48,057 nucleotides of DNA from positions 1 through 48,057 of the forward strand of contig JAWABU010000009.1 of the NCBI GenBank assembly GCA_038884455.1. The letters run 5' to 3'. Below the pieces are notes generated by a model. That model ran no database searches, was not told where the DNA came from, and saw only the letters and a list, made by a program, of their open reading frames with translations. The position numbers and the translations under genes were made by a program. Origin of the DNA: Candidatus Thermoplasmatota archaeon. GTDB lineage: Archaea > Thermoplasmatota > E2 > DHVEG-1. This document shows, piece after piece, positions 3,032 through 45,590 of this stretch; positions within the stretch are counted from its first letter, which is position 1; every line of letters starts with the position of its first letter.

Positions 3032-3604
3032 ATGGATATTGATCTAGATCTCCCAACCAATTTCGATCCGAACAGCCACTTTGATGTTGTTCAGGCTTCT
3101 ATGCTCAAAAATGGGGAGCTAGTCAAACACCCATGTGGCGTGTATTTCCAGAATATTTCAAAAGATAAGATTACACAACTTGCTGCAATTCCTTACGAAG
3201 AAGCAGAAAAACTGGGTTATTTCAAGATAGATTTTCTTCATTTGTCGCTTTTAGATTATTTCAAAAATAAAAATGAAATTCGAACATTACTCAAGACTGA
3301 CCCTGATTGGTCTCTTCTTGAGAAACGAGAGGTTGTGGAACAACTCTTTCAGTTACACAAACATTTTGACATAATTAGTCAAATCAAACCACGTTCTATT
3401 CAAGAACTTGCTGATTGTATTGCGTTAATTAGACCCGGAAAACGTTACCTGCTTCCAATTTATATTAAAAACAGAGAGTTTGCTCGAAAAGAGCTATATA
3501 TGAAACCAAAAGAATCTGTTATTTGGTTTAAAAAAAGCCATTCTATAGCTTATGCAATGACAATAGTATTACAACTTCATTTGTTTAAAGGCGGAATTTT
3601 ATAA
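3032..3604 (+). CDS. DnaE-like mini-protein (DNA polymerase III alpha core motifs)
   Basis: 190 residues. In the right order it carries short versions of motifs diagnostic of bacterial DNA polymerase III alpha: MDIDLDLP (the PDxDxDF Asp motif), KHPCGVYF (HxxGV), GYFKIDFLHLSLL (the KFDFLGL motif with the third catalytic Asp), ELADCIALIRPGKR (the ALxRPGP motif) and WFKKSHSIAYAM (the GFNKSHxxAY motif). DnaE itself is about 1,100 residues, so PHP, tau-binding and most finger sequence are absent. The protein may be a minimal polymerase-fold relative with another role, or a reduced remnant. No strong ribosome site precedes the ATG, and an in-frame stop lies just upstream, so the start is moderately certain. 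Motif recognition is from the sequence; activity is not claimed. Confidence 0.65.
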   Translation: MDIDLDLPTNFDPNSHFDVVQASMLKNGELVKHPCGVYFQNISKDKITQLAAIPYEEAEKLGYFKIDFLHLSLLDYFKNKNEIRTLLKTDPDWSLLEKREVVEQLFQLHKHFDIISQIKPRSIQELADCIALIRPGKRYLLPIYIKNREFARKELYMKPKESVIWFKKSHSIAYAMTIVLQLHLFKGGIL

Positions 3605-3654
3605 GTAACACTGTATTTTAATAAATATTATAAGTAACACAGTATTTTAATAAA
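3601..3654. repeat. 25-bp direct repeat, two copies, one mismatch
   Basis: ATAAGTAACAC, T or A, then GTATTTTAATAAA: copies at 3601-3625 and 3630-3654. The first overlaps the stop codon of the DnaE-like gene and the second lies in the leader of the next gene. The AT-rich ends could include promoter elements, but no standard box pair was found. Confidence 0.85.
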
Positions 3655-16759: not shown

Positions 16760-17881
16760 ATGAGAATAGGTTTACTCAAAGAAACAAAAAATGGAGAACG
16801 TAGAGTAGGATTAACACCCGAAAGTGTGCACCAATTAGTTAACGCTGGTCATGTTGTCTTTGTGCAACATGACGCAGGTGAAGGCGTGGGTATCTCAGGA
16901 GAACAATACCAAAAAGTAGGTGCAATTGTTGTTGACACAGCAAAAGAGGTTATAACCGAATCAGATATGATTGTTAAAGTGAAAGAACCTTCACTTATAG
17001 AAGCATCTTTGTTTAAAGAAAATCAAATTATTTTTTGTTATTTGCATCTTGCTCCAAACCCTGCATTGACAAGAGTACTTCTTGATAAAAAAGTTATTGG
17101 AGTAGCATTTGAAACGATTACTTCCAAAAACGGAAATCCGCTTCTTTGCCCAATGTCAGTTGTTGCTGGAAGAATGGCAACACAAATTGGGGCACATTTA
17201 TTACAATGTTCTAAGGGGGGAAGGGGACTTTTAATTTCAGGAGTTCCGGGAATAGTACCACCAGCAAAGGTTGTAGTTCTTGGTGGTGGTACTGTTGGAA
17301 CAAATGCTGCAGAAATTGCTGTTGGTATGGGTGCAGCTGTTATCATTATTGATAACAGGGAAGAATCATTAAAACGGGTAAAATCTAAATTTGGAGATCG
17401 AGTGGATATCTCGTTTTTAACAAACGAAGTACTTGAGTATGAACTTACAACTGCTGATATAGCTATTGGTGCAACACATGTTGCTGGTGCCTTAACAACC
17501 AAAGTAGTCAGCGAAGAATTGGTTAAAAAAATGAAAAGAGGCTCTGTTATTGTTGATGTTGCTATAGACCAAGGTGGTTGTTTTGAAACATCAAGAGTAA
17601 CAACATTATCAGAACCAACATTTATTAAACACGGGGTAATACATTACTGTGTACCAAATATGCCTGGTGATGTTCCGTTTACATCAACATACGCACTAAA
17701 TAATTTTTTGTTGCCGTACGTTTTGGATATTGCCAACAAAGGAATTGTACAAGCGTGTAAGGAAGATAAAGATGTTTGTAATGGTCTTCATGTATTTAAG
17801 GGAAATACTACAAACAAGTATATTGCCGCCACGCTTGAAAATGGTGTTTATGTAGATCCTATTTCATTACTTTGTGTATAA
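16760..17881 (+). CDS. ald: alanine dehydrogenase
   Basis: 373 residues, full family length. It interconverts L-alanine and pyruvate plus ammonia with NAD(H). Catalytic and binding residues of the family are all present: Arg15 (ERRVGLTPESV), Lys75 (VKVKEP), His96 (CYLHLAP), the Rossmann GGGTVGTNAAEIAVGMGA with Asp in the IIDNR acid position, Asp in VDVAIDQGG, and the terminal CVPNMPGDVPFTSTYALNN. Ribosome site GGTGAGGGGAA. It sits between queE and a Nudix gene. A complete alanine dehydrogenase in a phage is most unusual. Possible roles: pyruvate or nitrogen supply, or altering peptidoglycan alanine. Capture from a bacterium is inferred; codon use now resembles its neighbours. Confidence 0.93.
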   Translation: MRIGLLKETKNGERRVGLTPESVHQLVNAGHVVFVQHDAGEGVGISGEQYQKVGAIVVDTAKEVITESDMIVKVKEPSLIEASLFKENQIIFCYLHLAPNPALTRVLLDKKVIGVAFETITSKNGNPLLCPMSVVAGRMATQIGAHLLQCSKGGRGLLISGVPGIVPPAKVVVLGGGTVGTNAAEIAVGMGAAVIIIDNREESLKRVKSKFGDRVDISFLTNEVLEYELTTADIAIGATHVAGALTTKVVSEELVKKMKRGSVIVDVAIDQGGCFETSRVTTLSEPTFIKHGVIHYCVPNMPGDVPFTSTYALNNFLLPYVLDIANKGIVQACKEDKDVCNGLHVFKGNTTNKYIAATLENGVYVDPISLLCV

Positions 17882-17892
17882 AAAATAAAAAT

Positions 17893-18315
17893 ATGACAAA
17901 ACAGTTAATCTTTAGAGCTGCAGTAATTCCATATTATATTGAAGATGGAGTTGTTAAGATGCTTTTTATGAAACCATCAAATACTTTTTATGGTGGTGAT
18001 GCGTTTCAAATAGCAAAGGGAAGAATTGAAGACGACGAAACGGCCGAACAAACAGCAATTCGTGAAGGGTACGAAGAATTAGGATTAAGACCAGATAATA
18101 CATTATCTTTTGTAAATTTTGGTGTTTTTCTCGGAAGAACAACTTTTTTTCTTGCAAAAGTTGCTGATAAAAATCGATTTGATACACCTCACTTTGAAAC
18201 AGCCGAAACGCGTTGGATGACATGCGAGGAATTTCAGAGAAAAGGCAGAGATATCCACAGGGCAGTGGTGATGTCTGCAATGAATTTAATAGAATTGTTA
18301 GAAGGGATGACATGA
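17893..18315 (+). CDS. Nudix hydrolase
   Basis: 140 residues from ATG 17893 (a frame extension overlapping the ald stop is possible). The Nudix box GX5EX7REUXEEXGU is complete: GRIEDDETAEQTAI then REGYEELGL at residues 40-62, with the metal-binding Glu pair. Family members split nucleoside diphosphates linked to another group; substrate not readable. Coupled by ATGA overlap to the following small gene. Confidence 0.9.
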   Translation: MTKQLIFRAAVIPYYIEDGVVKMLFMKPSNTFYGGDAFQIAKGRIEDDETAEQTAIREGYEELGLRPDNTLSFVNFGVFLGRTTFFLAKVADKNRFDTPHFETAETRWMTCEEFQRKGRDIHRAVVMSAMNLIELLEGMT

Positions 18316-29462: not shown

Positions 29463-29796
29463 CTACATCTTATTTACGTTAATCAGATCAATTCTCAACG
29501 GACGGTCATGATCCATGACCGTTAGATTTTGTACAACATCATCAATCAATACGACATGATCTTCTTGTGTAAGAAGGGCCCAATCAATGAAAGCACGTTG
29601 TTTACCCCAGATTGTGGTGAACTCGGTTACCTCCATCATCGTTCCATGTTTCCAGAACACTTGCTATTTCAATTGCTTGTTTGATACCATGCTGTACAAA
29701 ATCTTCTTGATCTTTGTCGTTCCACACAGCAAATGAAAAAATACCAACCTTTTTAAGTTGACGCTGTTCAATCCAATTCCAAAGGCCCGAACCACC
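29463..29796 (-). pseudogene. decayed gene, 5' end missing and frameshifted
   Basis: Minus-strand coding remnant. From 29796 the frame reads GSGLWNWIEQRQLKKVGIFS, then FAVWNDKDQEDFVQHGIKQA. Near 29640-29650 the sense continues in another frame (VTEFTTIWGKQRAFIDWAL, HVVLIDDVVQNLTV) to TAA 29463. Dropping one base in the gatgatggagg stretch joins them. The remnant is blocked upstream by TAG 29797-29799, beyond which lies structured non-coding sequence, so the N-terminal part is gone. The strand pattern KVGIFSFAVWND...VVLIDDVV suggests a HAD-like phosphatase or kinase partner protein. Confidence 0.6.
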
Positions 29797-29799
29797 CTA

Positions 29800-30184
29800 C
29801 TTGTTGGGACTAACTGTGTTTTCTGCATAGATAGCACCCTAGCTATAGGTCCAGTTTTTGCTACCTTTACGTTAACAACGGTGGTTAACTCGTTGCCCTC
29901 GCTCGTTTTACGTTGTAAAAGATTTAACCTTTACAACTATTAATTAGTTGCGACTTATATCAAGGAACAAACTAAGGTTTATTCAACTTGAATGCGCCCC
30001 TTCTCTGGTTAGCCCCACCCAACGCCCCCAGCCACTGCACCTTTTCCGTGCAATCCCTAATTCTATAACTGATGTCGAGAGAATTTCTTATAATCTCCCG
30101 ACGTCTTGAAGTCAGCAAGCGATGATTTGTTCCCTACCTTCTGACTAAAGTAGATGTTTGTCATCCTTCGTTTTATCACCAGTT
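29800..30184 (-). ncRNA. candidate structured RNA, about 385 nt
   Basis: No ORF. Directly behind a strong promoter (30191-30219, minus). Read on the minus strand it holds several good stems: AGTCAG...CTGACT, a 9-bp GTCGGGAGA / TCTCTCGAC hairpin (30074-30102), TGCAC...GTGCA, TTGTAAA...TTTACAA and ATAGC...GCTAT. G+C is above that of neighbouring genes. No tmRNA tag, RNase P or clear group I intron core was found. The 3' end is not defined: no T-run terminator was seen before the decayed gene. Confidence 0.5.
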
Positions 30185-30190
30185 ATGGTT

Positions 30191-30219
30191 ATTATATATA
30201 ATTATAACCCTCAAGTCAA
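30191..30219 (-). promoter_or_regulatory. near-consensus sigma70 promoter (minus)
   Basis: TTGACT, 17 bases including GAGGGT, perfect TATAAT. It drives the candidate RNA at 29.8-30.18 kb and possibly the tRNA beyond. Confidence 0.85.
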
Positions 30220-30281
30220 CATTTTTATTATTTATAAAATGGAGGGAGATAAATAGACATAAAAATGCGCATTTAACGACT

Positions 30282-31034
30282 ATGAAATTAATGGAATTAA
30301 TTACACCCGCAAAAGATATTGAAACACCCATTGGTGCTTTTGTTAAAGGCATGGCATACGAAAAAGACAAAAAACTAACATATAAGGGTAAAAATATAGA
30401 GATACTTGGAGCTGGTATTGAAGGTACCGCTTATCGATTGGAAGATAATCCAAACGTTATCAAAGTGATGACAAGCAATAAAGAAAATCTCGGAAAAATT
30501 CCTTATCTACAGTATATTTTAACTTTATCCAAGTATGCAAAAGAAAATCCTTATTTTCCACGAGTTGACCGTATATCAGAAATACCTATAAATCCAAGTG
30601 AATATAATGTTGTTATTAACAACGTCCATGAAAAAAATCCTGATGTAGCTCAAAAATTTGCTCGAACATTTGCTCGTTACCCTCTATCAAAACTTATTGT
30701 CTTTAAAATGGAACCATTAGTAGAATTTAGTCAAGCAACAAGAGAAGAATTATTAGTTTTATTTCAAAAAATGTTTGGAACAGAACCAACGAAACAATTA
30801 AGCCCAAACGAATTAAGAGAAGAAATTACAAAAATTATCGAAAAAGCAGTGCACGGAAAATATACAGCTGATTATTTAAATCAAATTAAAGATCCGTATC
30901 TTAAAAACGCAATATCATTGATTAAAAAGGTTAGAGCTAAAACTAAGGCCTATGTTGATATCCATAGAGAAAACGTAATGCTCCGTAGAACACCATACGG
31001 ATTACAACTAGTTATTACTGATCCTCTAGTATGA
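30282..31034 (+). CDS. protein-kinase-fold protein with targeting-type N-terminus
   Basis: 250 residues. A Gly-rich loop (LGAGIEGTAYRLED) is followed by VIKVM, whose Lys would hold ATP. Near the C-terminus VDIHRENVMLRR...LVITDPL takes the place of the kinase catalytic loop (HxxN) and DFG-type Asp. This is a reduced kinase or aminoglycoside-phosphotransferase-like fold, as found in several large phages. The start MKLMELITPA is a short amphipathic helix like capsid-targeting peptides, so the protein may be packaged and injected. A GATAAATA box lies about 30 bases upstream. Substrate unknown. Confidence 0.7.
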   Translation: MKLMELITPAKDIETPIGAFVKGMAYEKDKKLTYKGKNIEILGAGIEGTAYRLEDNPNVIKVMTSNKENLGKIPYLQYILTLSKYAKENPYFPRVDRISEIPINPSEYNVVINNVHEKNPDVAQKFARTFARYPLSKLIVFKMEPLVEFSQATREELLVLFQKMFGTEPTKQLSPNELREEITKIIEKAVHGKYTADYLNQIKDPYLKNAISLIKKVRAKTKAYVDIHRENVMLRRTPYGLQLVITDPLV

Positions 31035-31036
31035 GC

Positions 31037-31195
31037 TTAATAATTAGTAAGTTTTGATCTTACAAAGATATAAAGTGCAACAATTCCGGCTGCTATAAAT
31101 ATAATTGTAAAAAGAACGATTGTTATTAAAATTCCCTCTTCAGTAGGAGGAACTACAATCAGCAGAATTGATAGTATGATTAATAAATTAATCAA
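31037..31195 (-). CDS. 52-residue membrane protein, TTG start
   Basis: Two hydrophobic segments (INLLIILSILLIVVP and ILITIVLFTIIFIAAGIVALYIF) joined by PTEEG: a small inner-membrane hairpin protein. TTG 31195 lies four bases after the upstream stop; no ATG in frame. It ends just after the convergent kinase-like gene. Confidence 0.55.
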   Translation of the reverse strand: MINLLIILSILLIVVPPTEEGILITIVLFTIIFIAAGIVALYIFVRSKLTNY

Positions 31196-31769: not shown

Positions 31770-31798
31770 TTTATACATTAAAAAGGGTCTAAAGTCAA
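31770..31798 (-). promoter_or_regulatory. sigma70 promoter overlapping a TATAAATA box
   Basis: TTGACT, 17 bases including AGACCC, TATAAA (minus). The -10 is also part of TATAAATA, so early and late polymerase could use the same site. 31799-31937 holds no gene. Confidence 0.75.
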
Positions 31799-32318: not shown

Positions 32319-32630
32319 TTACTTCCTGCGCATTGTTACGGTTGCATCGACTGCGCAAACATATGGAAGCTTTTCAACCTGATTATAACCATATGGTGTT
32401 GGGGTAACTTTATCGTCTGACTTGCTACAACTGCAGTCACTTCGAGATGTAGTTACTTCATAACCCCATGAAGTTCGTTCCATTGAGTTCAGCCATGAAT
32501 TAGCTTGTTCTTTTGCAAGAGCACAAGCTGATGCACTCGAATATTGAGCATACCCAGTAAATGTTTGGTGCTTCGTTCCTTCAGAAGCTATCCATAGAAT
32601 AAGTGATAAAATTGTTATTACTTTCTTCAT
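32319..32630 (-). CDS. small exported Cys-containing protein
   Basis: 103 residues with an excellent ribosome site (AAGGAGGATAT ATG). The N-terminus MKKVITILSLILWIASEG is a signal peptide or anchor. The mature part is polar with Cys in pairs (ACALAKEQ, SDCSCSKSD, PYVCAVDA). Same general type as the broken gene directly downstream, four bases away. Unknown function; envelope-located. Confidence 0.7.
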   Translation of the reverse strand: MKKVITILSLILWIASEGTKHQTFTGYAQYSSASACALAKEQANSWLNSMERTSWGYEVTTSRSDCSCSKSDDKVTPTPYGYNQVEKLPYVCAVDATVTMRRK

Positions 32631-32643
32631 ATATCCTCCTTAC

Positions 32644-32663
32644 GTTAAGGAACCAACCTTAAC
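32644..32663 (-). promoter_or_regulatory. leader hairpin before ribosome site
   Basis: GTTAAGG / CCTTAAC, 7-bp stem and 6-base loop, right before the AAGGAGG of the gene at 32630; may protect or control that mRNA. Confidence 0.5.
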
Positions 32664-32730
32664 CCAAGGGAGGAAAGAAAAAAATCAACTGACGGGTACC
32701 CCATAATAAAGGGGGCTTGTGATGGATTTG

Positions 32731-32762
32731 AAAAAAAGCCCAAGAGGGTCAATCTCTTGGGC
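32731..32762 (-). terminator. rho-independent terminator
   Basis: On the minus strand GCCCAAGAG, 7-base loop, CTCTTGGGC, then T7. It ends the RNA described next. Confidence 0.92.
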
Positions 32763-33050
32763 AGATCATAATAGTCCCGAATTGCCTCGGTAGGTGCACT
32801 TGGTTACCTGCTATTTCACAGGACCATCCCCTACACGTCTTCTCAGAATAATCCGTCACCATTCCAAGAGAGAAGCTTCTCAGAAGGTCAAGGCTTACCG
32901 TTTTTAGCCCAGTGATACTGTCACGGTTCCGTGAAGTCGCGTGGATTTCCGGGTCATTCAGCTGCCCTCTGTTTACCCTTCGGCCTTGGAGGTACAACCT
33001 ATCGGCTTTCTGCGCTATGTTCCCACCATGCACTAAGTGCTCTTTTCTAT
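32735..33050 (-). ncRNA. candidate novel structured RNA, about 310 nt, promoter to terminator
   Basis: A complete non-coding transcription unit: sigma70 promoter at 33057-33085, predicted start near 33050, strong terminator at 32731-32762, and no ORF with a ribosome site. Long-range stem GCACUU (33035-33040) with AAGUGC near the 3' end closes the molecule. Inside are AGGU-ugu-ACCU, CACGG-aa-CCGUG, GGCU...AGCC, GAGAAGCUUCUC, CCUG-ugaaauag-CAGG and CCGA-ggcaau-UCGG hairpins. No match in memory to tmRNA, RNase P, 6S, group I or group II introns. Phage RNAs such as GOLLD or ROOL are larger. Function unknown. Confidence 0.65.
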
Positions 33051-33056
33051 ATTCGT

Positions 33057-33085
33057 AATATACTTTATTTGAACCTAAAAGTCAA
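33057..33085 (-). promoter_or_regulatory. sigma70 promoter of the structured RNA
   Basis: TTGACT, 17 bases, TATATT on the minus strand; the -35 overlaps the end of the preceding small gene. Confidence 0.85.
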
Positions 33086-34862: not shown

Positions 34863-35183
34863 TTACTTGCGTGACTTGCGTGACTTCTTCTGTTTGTGAA
34901 CTACCTCATACTTGTTGTTGTTAATCACAAGTTCCACCAACTCGTTGAGATTGACATTGCGGTAGTTGTCAGCACCAGTCGAATCGTAGCGACGTTCCCA
35001 CACACTCAACAGGTTCTTCTTGTCGGGATCATACTTCATCCCAACACCAGTATCGAATTTGTGAACATTAATGCGGCAGTTCATCTTACGCACTTCACCA
35101 TTTGTCCGTTTGACGAAAGTCACAGTAAAAAACGTGTTGCTGTTCTTCATCAATTCAATTGCTTGCTGATGCGTAATTTGCAT
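34863..35183 (-). CDS. hypothetical conserved-type phage protein
   Basis: 106 residues, good ribosome site (AGGAGAAAG). N-terminal helix (ITHQQAIELMKNSNTFF) then FTVTFVKRTNGEVRKMNCRI, YDSTGADNYRNVNLNELVEL and a Lys/Arg tail. FFTVTFxKRxxGExRxMxCR is a recurring phage motif of unknown role. Own promoter at 35209-35236. Confidence 0.7.
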   Translation of the reverse strand: MQITHQQAIELMKNSNTFFTVTFVKRTNGEVRKMNCRINVHKFDTGVGMKYDPDKKNLLSVWERRYDSTGADNYRNVNLNELVELVINNNKYEVVHKQKKSRKSRK

Positions 35184-35831: not shown

Positions 35832-35899
35832 ATGTTTGGTCTCCAATTACCTATCTAAAGGGTAACCATAGCTCAGTGGGGTCAAAAGTCAACGAGCAA
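35827..35899 (-). repeat. 73-bp promoter-plus-leader repeat, copy A
   Basis: Nearly identical to 37399-37471 (five or so differences). It contains TTGACTTTTGACCCCACTGA, TATGGT, and the leader with GGAGACCAAACATATG including the start codon of the gene at 35831. Confidence 0.9.
35865..35892 (-). promoter_or_regulatory. TTGACTTTTGACCC-type promoter
   Basis: TTGACT, 16 bases, TATGGT; drives the gene at 35831. Confidence 0.85.
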
Positions 35900-38163: not shown

Positions 38164-38192
38164 TTGACTTTTGGGTCAATTTATTATATGCT
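38164..38192 (+). promoter_or_regulatory. sigma70 promoter of the 57-nt element
   Basis: TTGACT, 17 bases, TATGCT. Predicted start within a base or two of 38200, exactly where the repeated 57-nt element begins. Confidence 0.8.
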
Positions 38193-38200
38193 TCCTGTAC

Positions 38201-38257
38201 GGCATGAAGGAAAGCCAAAGGCCGACAAGATCGGTGGTCCCGGTAAACTTGTGCTGA
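38201..38257 (+). repeat. 57-nt element at a transcription start, copy 1
   Basis: Identical base for base to 45534-45590. Contains CCGA-caaga-TCGG hairpin. It can encode a 17-residue peptide (MKESQRPTRSVVPVNLC) from an ATG almost at the predicted RNA 5' end, with no ribosome site. Either a small RNA, a leaderless micro-ORF, or a regulatory leader. Confidence 0.85.
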
Positions 38258-39166: not shown

Positions 39167-39361
39167 ATGGATTCAGTGCAAGAATTGTCACTTACAACGT
39201 GGTGGCGGATAGCTACTGAGAATACAATTTCTTGGGAACGTGTAGCATCATATTTGCATGGTGCATTTATGATGTTGCCTATCGGTGAGGGACTAACAGA
39301 ATTTGGAGACGATTTGATTTTTTTGCGTGCTATTTGTTATCGGCGGGCTGAACTTTCCTAG
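39167..39361 (+). CDS. hypothetical small protein at the cassette boundary
   Basis: 64 residues from ATG 39167 (AAGAGG eight bases upstream; ATG 39161 is too close). Helical with two Trp (SLTTWWRIATENTISWERVA). Its last 20 codons lie in the 66-bp repeat, whose second copy after rIIB encodes the same C-terminus (FGDDLIFLRAICYRRAELS) without an N-terminal part. Confidence 0.7.
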   Translation: MDSVQELSLTTWWRIATENTISWERVASYLHGAFMMLPIGEGLTEFGDDLIFLRAICYRRAELS

Positions 39362-39367
39362 GAAACA
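39302..39367. repeat. 66-bp direct repeat, left copy
   Basis: Matches 43015-43080 with one mismatch (gtgc / gcgc). Covers the 3' end of the gene at 39167 plus six bases beyond its stop. Together the copies bracket the GC-rich rIIA-rIIB cassette like attachment sites. Confidence 0.95.
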
Positions 39368-39574: not shown

Positions 39575-39618
39575 GTTCTTGTTGTTTGATTAACCCCCCT
39601 TCAACAACGAGGCAGACA

Positions 39619-41847
39619 GTGAAACTTCAGCATGAAGACCGGCCGATCGAGCGCGGTGGCGATCTGGTCGAAACGCAATTCAAAATCAAGGCCACCGCCA
39701 AGGCGTTCGCCATTCTGTCGAGTGGTCTGTACACCAACAAGATCCGTGCGATCATCCGCGAACTTGCCTGCAATGCGTACGACTCGCATGTCGCTGCTGG
39801 CAAGAAAGATACGCCGATCGAGATCAAGCTTCCGACCGCACTCGAGCCGACTTTCTACGTGAAGGACTTCGGCACTGGCCTCGACCACGACGGCGTGACG
39901 CAGCTGTACACGACGTACTTCGAGTCGACGAAGCAGGACAGCAACGACTTCATCGGTGCGCTCGGTCTCGGCAGCAAGTCGCCGTTCAGCTACACCTCTT
40001 CGTTCAACGTCGAAGCACGCCACAACGGTGTGGTGCGGCACTACACTGCGTTCATCAACGAACAAGGCACCCCTGCGATCACGAAGATCGCCGAGAAGGC
40101 AACCGCTGAGCCGAACGGCCTGACCGTCTCCCTGCAAGTCAAGCGTGAAGACTGCACGAAGTTCGAGACCGAAGCAAAGCACGCGCTGATGTACTTCCAT
40201 CCGCTGCCGAACATTCTCGGCCGCGAAAAGTGGAAACCGCATTCGGTGAAACACACCGTCAACGGCGGCGACTGGAAACTGCGCGAGACCGACGAGTACA
40301 CGACGCAGATGTCTGGTCCGTACGTGCTGCAAGGTTTCGTCGCGTATCCGATCGACGCGAACGTGATGCGTCAGAACGGACTGTCGAACACCACTTCGCA
40401 ACTGCTGAACCTGCACGTCGATCTGGTCGTTCCGATCGGCGAAGTGGAGGTCGCTGCGTCGCGTGAGGCTCTGTCGTACACGAAGCAGACCGTTGCCAAC
40501 ATCAAAGCTCGTCTCGATCGGATCACCGCCGAACTGCATTCCACCGTGCAGAAGGAATTCGACAACTGCACGACGTTGTGGGAAGCTCGGATGAAGTATG
40601 TGGCGTTCGAGTCGGAGATGAAAGGAAACGAGCACCTTCGCGACGTTTTCCGCACTCTGAAAAATACCAAACCGTTCAAGTGGAATGGCAAGTCGCTGAG
40701 CGATGAGGTAAAACTGGACGTCGGTTCTTTGGAGAACATCGAAGTCGTTCTCTACTACAAGACCAAGTCGAACAAAGCTCTGCAACGTTCGGCCGTCTTC
40801 GAGCCTGGTACGAAGCAAAAGCACTTCAACGACAAGCAAAAGACGTTCCAGTTCGGTCTTCACCTCCGTCCGAATCTGCCTGTGTTGATTGACGACCTCT
40901 ACGGCGGCAACGACATTCTCCGTCAGTGGCTGGACGATCGGATTGGCAACAGCTGGCAGGATAAGTACGCTCTCGTCTTCCGTCCGCTGTCCCGCAAAGT
41001 CGAAGCCGAAGCGAAGCAGGAGATCATCACGATCCTCGACCAGCTCGGCAGTCCGACTCCGCTGTTGGTCAGTGCCCTGCCGTATCAGCGCACGAAGAAG
41101 TCGTACTACAAGAAGCGTGCAGCGAACATGCTGTACAAGTGGTCTGGCTTTGCGTCGAACGGCGGCTACAAGAAGAACCAGATTCGTCGATCGTTCTCGA
41201 AGCTCTGCTGGACGACGAAGGAAGTGGATTTTTCGGACGGCGGCTTCTACGTCCCAACCAAGAAGTTTGCGATCATGCGAAATGGTGCGGAGCAGCTGTA
41301 CTTCGACGAGATCCTCAGCTCGGCGGCGTCGCTTGGACTGATCCCTGCGAACGTTGAAGTGATTGGCATGTCGGAGAAAGAGCTCGCCGACGCACAGGAC
41401 GAAGGTGAGTGGACGAACGTGTTCGACCACATCGCTGCGGAGTTTGCGAAGGTGAACAAGCAGCACGAGATGTCGAACGTGATCGCTCTCGCCGACATCG
41501 TCGAGAAGCTCGGTCGTGGCATGTCGCAGAACATCATCGTGCCGTGGAAGAAGCTGCGTGACGATGTTGTCGACTGCGACTTCAAGAAACTGCTCGACGG
41601 CGTACTGGAGCTTGCAACGAGCAAACACGAGCATGGTGTGGTGAGGAGATTTCTCACCCACATGAAAATGCAAGCCGAGCTGGACTTCGTCAACAAGACC
41701 GTTGATGACGTTATGGCAAAGTGGAAGACGGTGAAAACTCAGTATGAGATGTTTGATCTCATCAACTGGAGCAACATCGGAAGCCATAACACGAAGGTGG
41801 TGGTCAACTACATCAACACCGTCGAGAAGAGCAGGAAAAAGAGTTAG
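39619..41847 (+). CDS. rIIA: RIIA-like lysis-inhibition/exclusion protein
   Basis: 742 residues from GTG 39619, chosen because GAGG stands six bases before it; a TTG at 39586 lacks one. GHKL ATPase motifs near the N-terminus: RELACNAYDSH (N box), VKDFGTGLD (G1) and GALGLGSKSPF (G2), with YTTYFESTK between, as in T4 rIIA. The GHKL part is followed by a ribosomal-S5-like transducer region (EVAASREALSYT) and a long C-terminal half. In T4, rIIA with rIIB affects lysis timing and resists lambda Rex. G+C is clearly above that of the surrounding genes, with many CG-ending codons, a sign of recent import. Confidence 0.92.
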   Translation: MKLQHEDRPIERGGDLVETQFKIKATAKAFAILSSGLYTNKIRAIIRELACNAYDSHVAAGKKDTPIEIKLPTALEPTFYVKDFGTGLDHDGVTQLYTTYFESTKQDSNDFIGALGLGSKSPFSYTSSFNVEARHNGVVRHYTAFINEQGTPAITKIAEKATAEPNGLTVSLQVKREDCTKFETEAKHALMYFHPLPNILGREKWKPHSVKHTVNGGDWKLRETDEYTTQMSGPYVLQGFVAYPIDANVMRQNGLSNTTSQLLNLHVDLVVPIGEVEVAASREALSYTKQTVANIKARLDRITAELHSTVQKEFDNCTTLWEARMKYVAFESEMKGNEHLRDVFRTLKNTKPFKWNGKSLSDEVKLDVGSLENIEVVLYYKTKSNKALQRSAVFEPGTKQKHFNDKQKTFQFGLHLRPNLPVLIDDLYGGNDILRQWLDDRIGNSWQDKYALVFRPLSRKVEAEAKQEIITILDQLGSPTPLLVSALPYQRTKKSYYKKRAANMLYKWSGFASNGGYKKNQIRRSFSKLCWTTKEVDFSDGGFYVPTKKFAIMRNGAEQLYFDEILSSAASLGLIPANVEVIGMSEKELADAQDEGEWTNVFDHIAAEFAKVNKQHEMSNVIALADIVEKLGRGMSQNIIVPWKKLRDDVVDCDFKKLLDGVLELATSKHEHGVVRRFLTHMKMQAELDFVNKTVDDVMAKWKTVKTQYEMFDLINWSNIGSHNTKVVVNYINTVEKSRKKS

Positions 41848-41851
41848 GGGG

Positions 41852-41909
41852 TGGGAGGGGGATTCGACCGCTAAGTCTGCCAGACTGCCGAGTCCCCCTC
41901 TCCATTTTC
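41852..41909 (+). terminator. stem-loop terminator between rIIA and rIIB
   Basis: GGGAGGGGGATTCG pairs with CGAGTCCCCCTCTCC around an inner AGTCTGCCAGACT hairpin, then ATTTT. Separates rIIA from the promoter of rIIB. Confidence 0.7.
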
Positions 41910-41916
41910 TGACCTG

Positions 41917-41945
41917 TTGCCAAACGGATTGAAATAGGGTACGAT
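41917..41945 (+). promoter_or_regulatory. sigma70-type promoter of rIIB
   Basis: TTGCCA, 17 bases ending AGGG, TACGAT; RNA start about 45 bases before the rIIB ATG. Confidence 0.7.
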
Positions 41946-41995
41946 GTACGTGTTGGTCAGAAATGGCCGACAGAACCTCACACAAGGAGTTTTCC

Positions 41996-43000
41996 ATGTC
42001 AAACGGCAATATGATTTACGTGCCGAATGAGGTACTGACGGTTGTCGTCGACAACCAGCCCTACACAATCGCTGCCGCACACCCGAACTTCAAGGCGTGT
42101 GTGGAAGCGGCGAAGGCTGGTGATTTCGACGCGATCCCCTCGCTTGCGGACATTCCGCAGGCGATTCGTCAGTTCTCGGAAGGCAAGATCGAAGTCGATG
42201 AAGGTGCTGGAATCGTGCTGTACGGCGGCGAACCGATGCACAACTACGCTGCCGACCGTCTGCTCGGCATGATGTACGAAGGTTTCAACATCGATCCGCT
42301 CGTCAAGTTCCTCGAGAACCTGCTGCAGAACCCGTCCAAGCGTGCTGTGGACGAGCTGTACAAGTTCCTCGAGCACGGCAAGATGCCGCTCACTCCCGAC
42401 GGTCACTTCCTCGCGTACAAGCGTGTGCGGAGCGATTACAAGTCGGTGCATGACGGCAAGACCGACAACTCGATCGGCAAGGTCGTCGAAATGCCTCGCA
42501 ACAAGGTCGATGACAATTCGCAGCGGACCTGCTCGTACGGCTTGCACTTCTGCTCGCACGAGTACCTGAAGAACTTCAGCGGCGACAAAGTCGTCGTGCT
42601 GAAGGTGAATCCGCGCGACGTCGTGTCGATCCCTGCGGACTACAACGACACGAAAGGTCGTGCGTGCCGCTACGAAGTGGTTGGCGAACTCTCGCCCGAT
42701 GAAGTCGAGCGTGCTCTCGACAACAACGTGTGGGACGGCCGTTCGGTCGTTGGCGATTACGATCCCGACTACGACGATGCCGATCGTGATTTCGACGATC
42801 AGCCGTTCGGCGACGAGGACTTCGAAGCGTCGGACGACAACTACAACGAAGGCTACACGAACGGCTACGACGATGGTCGTGACAAGGAAGAGCCTGCTGT
42901 GACCGAAGACGACGAACCCACCACGCAGTGGGAAGAAGGCTACGTCGCTGGTTACAGAGACGGTCGCGGTCACAAGTCGCGTGCTGTTCCGAAGTCGTAA
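41996..43000 (+). CDS. rIIB: RIIB-like protein
   Basis: 334 residues from ATG 41996 (AAGGAG at 41984). T4 rIIB core motifs: FLEHGKMPLTPDGHFLAYKR, VHDGKTDNSIGKVVEMPRNK, TCSYGLHFCSHEYL and VVVLKVNPRDVVSIPADYND, then CRYEVVGEL. The C-terminus is acidic and carries two EGYxxGYxDGR repeats (EGYTNGYDDGRDK, EGYVAGYRDGRGH). Same high G+C as rIIA. It acts with rIIA; in T4 the pair is membrane-associated. The right 66-bp repeat begins 15 bases after its stop. Confidence 0.92.
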   Translation: MSNGNMIYVPNEVLTVVVDNQPYTIAAAHPNFKACVEAAKAGDFDAIPSLADIPQAIRQFSEGKIEVDEGAGIVLYGGEPMHNYAADRLLGMMYEGFNIDPLVKFLENLLQNPSKRAVDELYKFLEHGKMPLTPDGHFLAYKRVRSDYKSVHDGKTDNSIGKVVEMPRNKVDDNSQRTCSYGLHFCSHEYLKNFSGDKVVVLKVNPRDVVSIPADYNDTKGRACRYEVVGELSPDEVERALDNNVWDGRSVVGDYDPDYDDADRDFDDQPFGDEDFEASDDNYNEGYTNGYDDGRDKEEPAVTEDDEPTTQWEEGYVAGYRDGRGHKSRAVPKS

Positions 43001-43014
43001 CGTATGAGCACTCG

Positions 43015-43080
43015 TTTGGAGACGATTTGATTTTTTTGCGCGCTATTTGTTATCGGCGGGCTGAACTTTCCTAGGAAACA
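43015..43080. repeat. 66-bp direct repeat, right copy
   Basis: Second copy, one mismatch. It encodes only the C-terminal end of the protein at 39167. Base composition falls back to AT-rich right after it. 43081-43192 holds no gene. Confidence 0.95.
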
Positions 43081-44277: not shown

Positions 44278-44306
44278 TTGACATTTGGGGGGAGCTAGTC
44301 TATATT
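44278..44306 (+). promoter_or_regulatory. sigma70 promoter
   Basis: TTGACA, 17 bases, TATATT; drives the non-coding region that follows. Confidence 0.85.
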
Positions 44307-44312
44307 AAGTAA

Positions 44313-44690
44313 ATAAAGAAGTAACGGTGCTTGACGGCTGCCAAGAAGCACGGTTGATGGGAAGAGCAGGGTCGGGGTGCGGACAGGACCTTAAAAACGC
44401 ACACGGTGCTTGACGGCTGCCAAGAAGCACGGTTGATGGGAAGAGCAGGGTCGGGGTGCGGACAGGACCTTAAAAACGCACACGATGCACCACAAACAAT
44501 ATGCCTGAGGGTTCGAATCCCTTTACGTAACCCCGAAAGGGAAGGTGCAGGCACTAAAGTAACCGGAACTAAATGGCCGGGAGTTTGTGTGACACACTAG
44601 AGCATCGTTTAAGTGGTAAGGCTGCTTATATTGGAGCAGAGAGTAAGATCGCGTAATGTGTGGGGGCGGATCTTACAAGCGAATTCGTTG
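44313..44690 (+). ncRNA. candidate structured RNA with tandem-duplicated unit
   Basis: About 375 nt behind a good promoter without a credible ORF and richer in G+C than neighbouring genes. It starts with two 79-nt units (GTGCTT...AAGCAC stem in each). Then come a tRNA T-arm-like GAGGG-TTCGAAT-CCCTT, CCC-gaaa-GGG, CCGG...CCGG, GTGT-ga-CACAC, CTGCT...AGCAG and an 8-bp GTAAGATC / GATCTTAC stem (44643-44676). No complete tRNA can be folded. 3' end undefined; the next promoter is at 44691. Confidence 0.5.
44324..44481. repeat. 79-bp perfect tandem duplication
   Basis: Two identical 79-bp units, 44324-44402 and 44403-44481, in the non-coding transcript after the promoter at 44278. Confidence 0.95.
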
Positions 44691-45524: not shown

Positions 45525-45533
45525 TTCCATCAT

Positions 45534-45590
45534 GGCATGAAGGAAAGCCAAAGGCCGACAAGATCGGTGGTCCCGGTAAACTTGTGCTGA
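45534..45590 (+). repeat. 57-nt element at a transcription start, copy 2
   Basis: Identical to 38201-38257; flanks are unrelated except for the promoter type. Confidence 0.9.

Follow-up and report, generated by a model that had tools for sequence, protein, structure and literature searches.

A candidate early non-coding RNA of about 313 nt between its own promoter and terminator in an uncultured large tailed phage

The minus-strand unit between positions 33050 and 32738 of the window (the whole 48,057-base stretch analyzed here, which is a complete contig, C9, of a 1.70-Mb bacterial genome assembly) is, in our view, best explained as a discrete early non-coding RNA of about 313 nt, encoded by an uncultured large tailed phage and released at its own terminator, a reading that we hold with about even confidence. 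The unit has the features by which a phage early non-coding RNA is recognized in sequence, namely an early-type promoter and a terminator of its own (Table 1). Both signals are correctly oriented and far above chance, and by this measure the transcription unit (33085–32731) is real. The promoter, the terminator, the lack of a coding signal, and the phage context are what the sequence shows, and from these we infer transcription.

Table 1. Features of the 33085 unit and its surroundings (positions in the window).
Feature	Position	Strand	Details
Promoter TTGACT-17-TATATT	33085–33057	−	Belongs to the early promoter family of the phage
Presumed non-coding RNA, about 313 nt	33050–32738	−	From the inferred start to the terminator
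94-codon GTG ORF	33033–32749	−	Runs through the whole RNA; judged no gene
17-codon ATG ORF	32957–32904	−	SD-like AGAGG, −6.3 kcal/mol
Predicted branched domain	32942–32833	−	Closed by ACGCG/CGUGU; pairing probability 0.5–0.7; predicted from a single sequence
UCUCUUGG, possible antiterminator	32871–32864	−	Complementary to CCAAGAGA in the 5′ arm of the terminator
Most confident local hairpin, GGUCCUGU-GAAAUA-GCAGGUAACC	32825–32802	−	Pairing probability 0.91–0.99
Intrinsic terminator hairpin	32762–32738	−	Perfect 9 bp, 6 GC, 7-nt loop, −15.1 kcal/mol
Terminator T7 tail	32737–32731	−	Directly after the hairpin
Next downstream gene, small secreted-type protein, 103 aa	32630–32319	−	Without a recognized promoter

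Matches to a plain promoter consensus are cheap in this DNA (25 found versus 25 expected), and a stricter leave-one-out model was therefore applied, trained on 13 promoters from the early half, with the 33085 site left out (consensus TTGACTTTTnnnnC ... TATnCT). Under this model, the TTGACT-N17-TATATT element that the first-pass annotation had placed at 33085–33057 on the minus strand stands; it scores 17.1 bits, a level expected 0.3 times per shuffled window, and ranks among the best 16 sites in the window. The pattern TTGACT-16/17-TATAnT occurs at six sites in the right 18 kb, against 0.02 expected, and the family there occupies both strands and is mostly co-directional with short genes, from which we infer that the right 18 kb is transcribed early, by the polymerase of the host. 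Transcription of the unit would start near 33050, placed 7 nt past the −10 box. Two further early promoters, at 35892 and 37464 (both minus strand), share 73-nt promoter/leader sequences that are 93% alike, with different genes behind them.

At the other end of the unit, the perfect GC-rich hairpin and T7 tract described earlier were confirmed. With a strong terminator defined as a perfect stem of at least 8 bp and at least 5 GC pairs followed by T6, the 48-kb window contains no other strong intrinsic terminator, and none was seen in 200 shuffles (0.0 expected per shuffled window). The GC content is 48% over 32721–33060, versus about 37–43% in most neighboring 150-nt blocks.

Judged by its genes, the window is DNA of a large rIIA/rIIB-bearing phage, which also encodes a DNA polymerase, a RecT-like annealing protein, QueE-like and FolE2 enzymes, a PagP-like protein, and two tRNAs; the contig has no terminal repeats. 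Relatives of the phage are distant, with rIIA 35% identical in the sole IMG/VR match. Together with the promoter model and the codon test given below, this gene content bears out the original description of a non-coding unit of phage origin with an early-type promoter. The rIIA and rIIB genes (39586–43000, plus strand) have a GC3 of about 0.75, versus about 0.25 in most left-half genes, which suggests recent acquisition or different codon selection, and the pair is flanked by two copies of a 66-nt repeat that are 98% identical (39302–39367 and 43015–43080, plus strand). A small gene at 29463–29781 (minus strand) is split over two frames and is matched in a related viral contig (IMGVR_UViG_3300036715_001783, hereafter L017) by one unbroken 153-codon ORF at 17835–18296; the split may reflect a frameshift, decay, or an assembly error.

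Relative to shuffled sequences, the RNA folds with a z-score of −1.6 to −2.2 when the terminator is included. The body without the terminator scores −0.8 to −1.3 and is no more stable than equal-GC stretches of the window (z −0.18), and neither comparison lends support to the stably structured RNA that had been proposed. The same method gives the RNase P RNA of this genome a z-score of just −1.2, so the fold energy of the body neither favors nor excludes structure. The stretch 32802–32942 has a z-score of −1.33. All stems of the earlier description, six local ones and the GCACUU/AAGUGC closing stem, can be drawn; the minimum-energy fold includes the closing stem, though with a pairing probability below 0.5. 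A promoter and a terminator together make a good case for a transcript but say little on structure when relatives are absent.

Other promoter units of this phage, and one stretch of L017, are also poor in ORFs or lack them. A second ORF-poor unit, about 450 nt long, occupies 29740–30190 (minus strand) behind the promoter TTGACT-17-TATAAT at 30219 and upstream of a tRNA-Leu gene. Its center has a GC content of 47%, versus 26–36% in the adjoining 30151–31050, its fold z-score is −3.6, it gave no Rfam or blastn match, and an ORF of 33 codons close to its 5′ end is possibly coding; we regard it as a stronger structured-RNA candidate than the 33085 unit. In the unit at 44278–44690 (plus strand), a TTGACA-17-TATATT promoter precedes two perfect tandem copies of a 79-bp sequence (44324–44402 and 44403–44481), and the unit also holds a T-arm-like GAGGGTTCGAATCCCTT; no tRNA or tmRNA was called there, and blastn found no match in phages. 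A 66-nt element occurs in two copies, 94% identical, at 38192–38257 and 45525–45590 (plus strand), each right behind an early promoter (38164 and 45497, respectively), and may represent either a small RNA or an ORF of 17 codons (MKESQRPTRSVVPVNLC). In L017, the plus-strand stretch 3240–3640 is ORF-poor over about 400 nt, with a fold z-score of −6, a very long hairpin at its end, and no Rfam match.

Searches for relatives of the 33050–32738 RNA returned none from phage records (blastn) or plasmids, from IMG/VR (six back-translated stretches or three direct patterns), from genome contigs (six back-translated stretches), or from 80 genomes of the class and 390 of the phylum; in its own genome the RNA matches itself alone. 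Nine IMG/VR loci, found by synteny via the conserved early protein at 34863–35183, likewise lacked the RNA by nhmmer, blastn, and a single-sequence covariance model of 32802–32942. As no homolog was found, there is no sign of selection on the RNA, and, because such scans reach fairly close relatives only, absence is not proof of uniqueness. A scan of the window with Rfam 15 at gathering thresholds yielded two tRNAs only, with no match to GOLLD, ROOL, tmRNA, RNase P, 6S, introns, or riboswitches, which agrees with the first-pass view that the RNA falls in no known class. An RNase P-like string, AGCUGAAUGACC, was rejected, given that an RNase P RNA of this genome lies on contig C10 and that Rfam returned nothing at the locus. 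Kinship with the other ORF-less units of the window was also rejected, as none aligns significantly to the RNA, and the words in common with the 38192 repeat (AAGGCCGA, GGTAAAC, and GCTGA), spotted by eye, failed a shuffled-alignment test.

By its coding signals, the unit is very probably non-coding. A small protein gene, through translation of either ORF in Table 1, is improbable: an ORF as long as 94 codons is indeed rare (0.8% of shuffles), and its GTG lies about 23 nt past the −10 box, resembling the 25–37 nt of real early starts, but its SD energy is merely −2.1 kcal/mol, versus about −5.6 to −9.1 kcal/mol for gene-linked early starts, and its stop codon sits inside the terminator loop. 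In the codon test, which ranked the true frame first in 24 of 25 early genes, the ORF scores −0.26 in frame and is surpassed by another frame; Pfam and PHROG gave no match for it, and tblastn no convincing relative. The shorter ORF speaks for translation through its SD-like site, and it qualifies the original statement that no ORF carries a ribosome site, which stood for ORFs of at least 30 codons (none with a usable site within about 420 nt of the 33085 promoter) but not for this one of 17 codons. Most sister promoters have an SD-linked ORF within about 150 nt. It is highly improbable that the unit represents either a divergent form of some known RNA class or a decayed gene that falls below the detection limit of the models. 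The RNase P RNA of this genome scores under the class A cut-off, so known classes can drop below thresholds; at the locus, however, the Rfam matches at E up to 10 are unrelated, far below gathering, and taxonomically senseless, and blastn shows no trace of a source gene.

The main rival to a free RNA is a long 5′ leader with a regulated terminator, which we consider possible though rather unlikely. The 33085 promoter would then also serve the small secreted-protein genes at 32630–31938, and read-through at 32738 would be the regulated step, controlled by a bound factor or by a switch in which UCUCUUGG pairs with the arm of the terminator. The arrangement of promoters is consistent with this, as no family promoter lies between the terminator and 32630 (the best score in 32640–32760 is 5.5 bits) and the next is found only at 31798. 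The candidate antiterminator is an 8-nt perfect complement (P 0.012 in shuffles) that was selected after inspection, and it already lies within a predicted local hairpin, UUCUGAGA/UCUUGGAA, of probability 0.67. Precedents exist in the untranslated 5′ leaders of 150–200 bp in ICP1 satellites (PMC7567579) and in the HK022 put RNA, an early RNA that suppresses termination (PMC9378689). Against a leader, Rfam returned no riboswitch or leader match, and no homolog of the downstream gene turned up in which a conserved leader might have been seen. The two roles, as leader and as free RNA, could coexist.

If the free early RNA is the correct reading, the sigma-70 RNA polymerase of the host would transcribe it from the phage's early-family promoter, and the strong intrinsic terminator would release it as a separate molecule. 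An RNA with its own early promoter and such a release would be expected to accumulate separately, presumably early in infection, and to act in trans. Its partner would more likely be a protein or ribonucleoprotein, of host or phage, than a target of long antisense pairing. Such pairing is unlikely by complementarity, as the host assembly offers at most a 14-nt match (E 5.6) and the phage one of 13 nt, both at chance level, and these chance-length matches lend no backing to the scaffold or host-targeting RNA suggested in the first-pass annotation. A broader proposal, that the RNA belongs to a new class of early phage RNAs that are structured and act in trans, one of several ORF-less units (33085, 30219, 44278, and 38164/45497) driven by a dedicated early promoter family for host takeover, strikes us as quite unlikely. 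The early region of the phage nevertheless looks unusually rich in ORF-less promoter units, which is more interesting than the 33085 unit alone.

Several known systems invite comparison. Like the HK022 put RNA and attenuator leaders, the unit places an RNA element behind an early promoter where it could govern terminator read-through, with the difference that candidate regulation here consists of a single 8-nt post hoc complement. GOLLD and ROOL are, like the 33050–32738 RNA, phage-borne non-coding RNAs of obscure function, but they are longer, ornate, conserved by covariation, and often near tRNAs, and they differ from it in size, location, and sequence (PMC12286853). Vibrio phage ICP1, also a large lytic phage, produces two transcripts without ORFs, about 800 and 300 bp long and of unknown function (PMC7567579), an intergenic ORF-less transcription similar in size to that predicted here; unlike the early-type 33085 unit, the 300-bp RNA of ICP1 appears at 12–16 min after infection (PMC7567579), and no sequence relation to ICP1 was detected by blastn within the phage collection. 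In Staphylococcus phage K, RNA-seq revealed the non-coding RNAs lnc001 and snc001–007, whose function is unknown; of these, lnc001 is read from its own early promoter, is about 635 nt long, lies near tRNA genes, and has been likened to GOLLD/ROOL (PMC9241854). The RNA described here is shorter than lnc001, lies 3.3 kb from the nearest tRNA, and is known from sequence alone. It is an orphan addition to a known kind, the phage early non-coding RNAs of obscure function, and, if transcribed, would be one more orphan among a growing list of phage non-coding RNAs.
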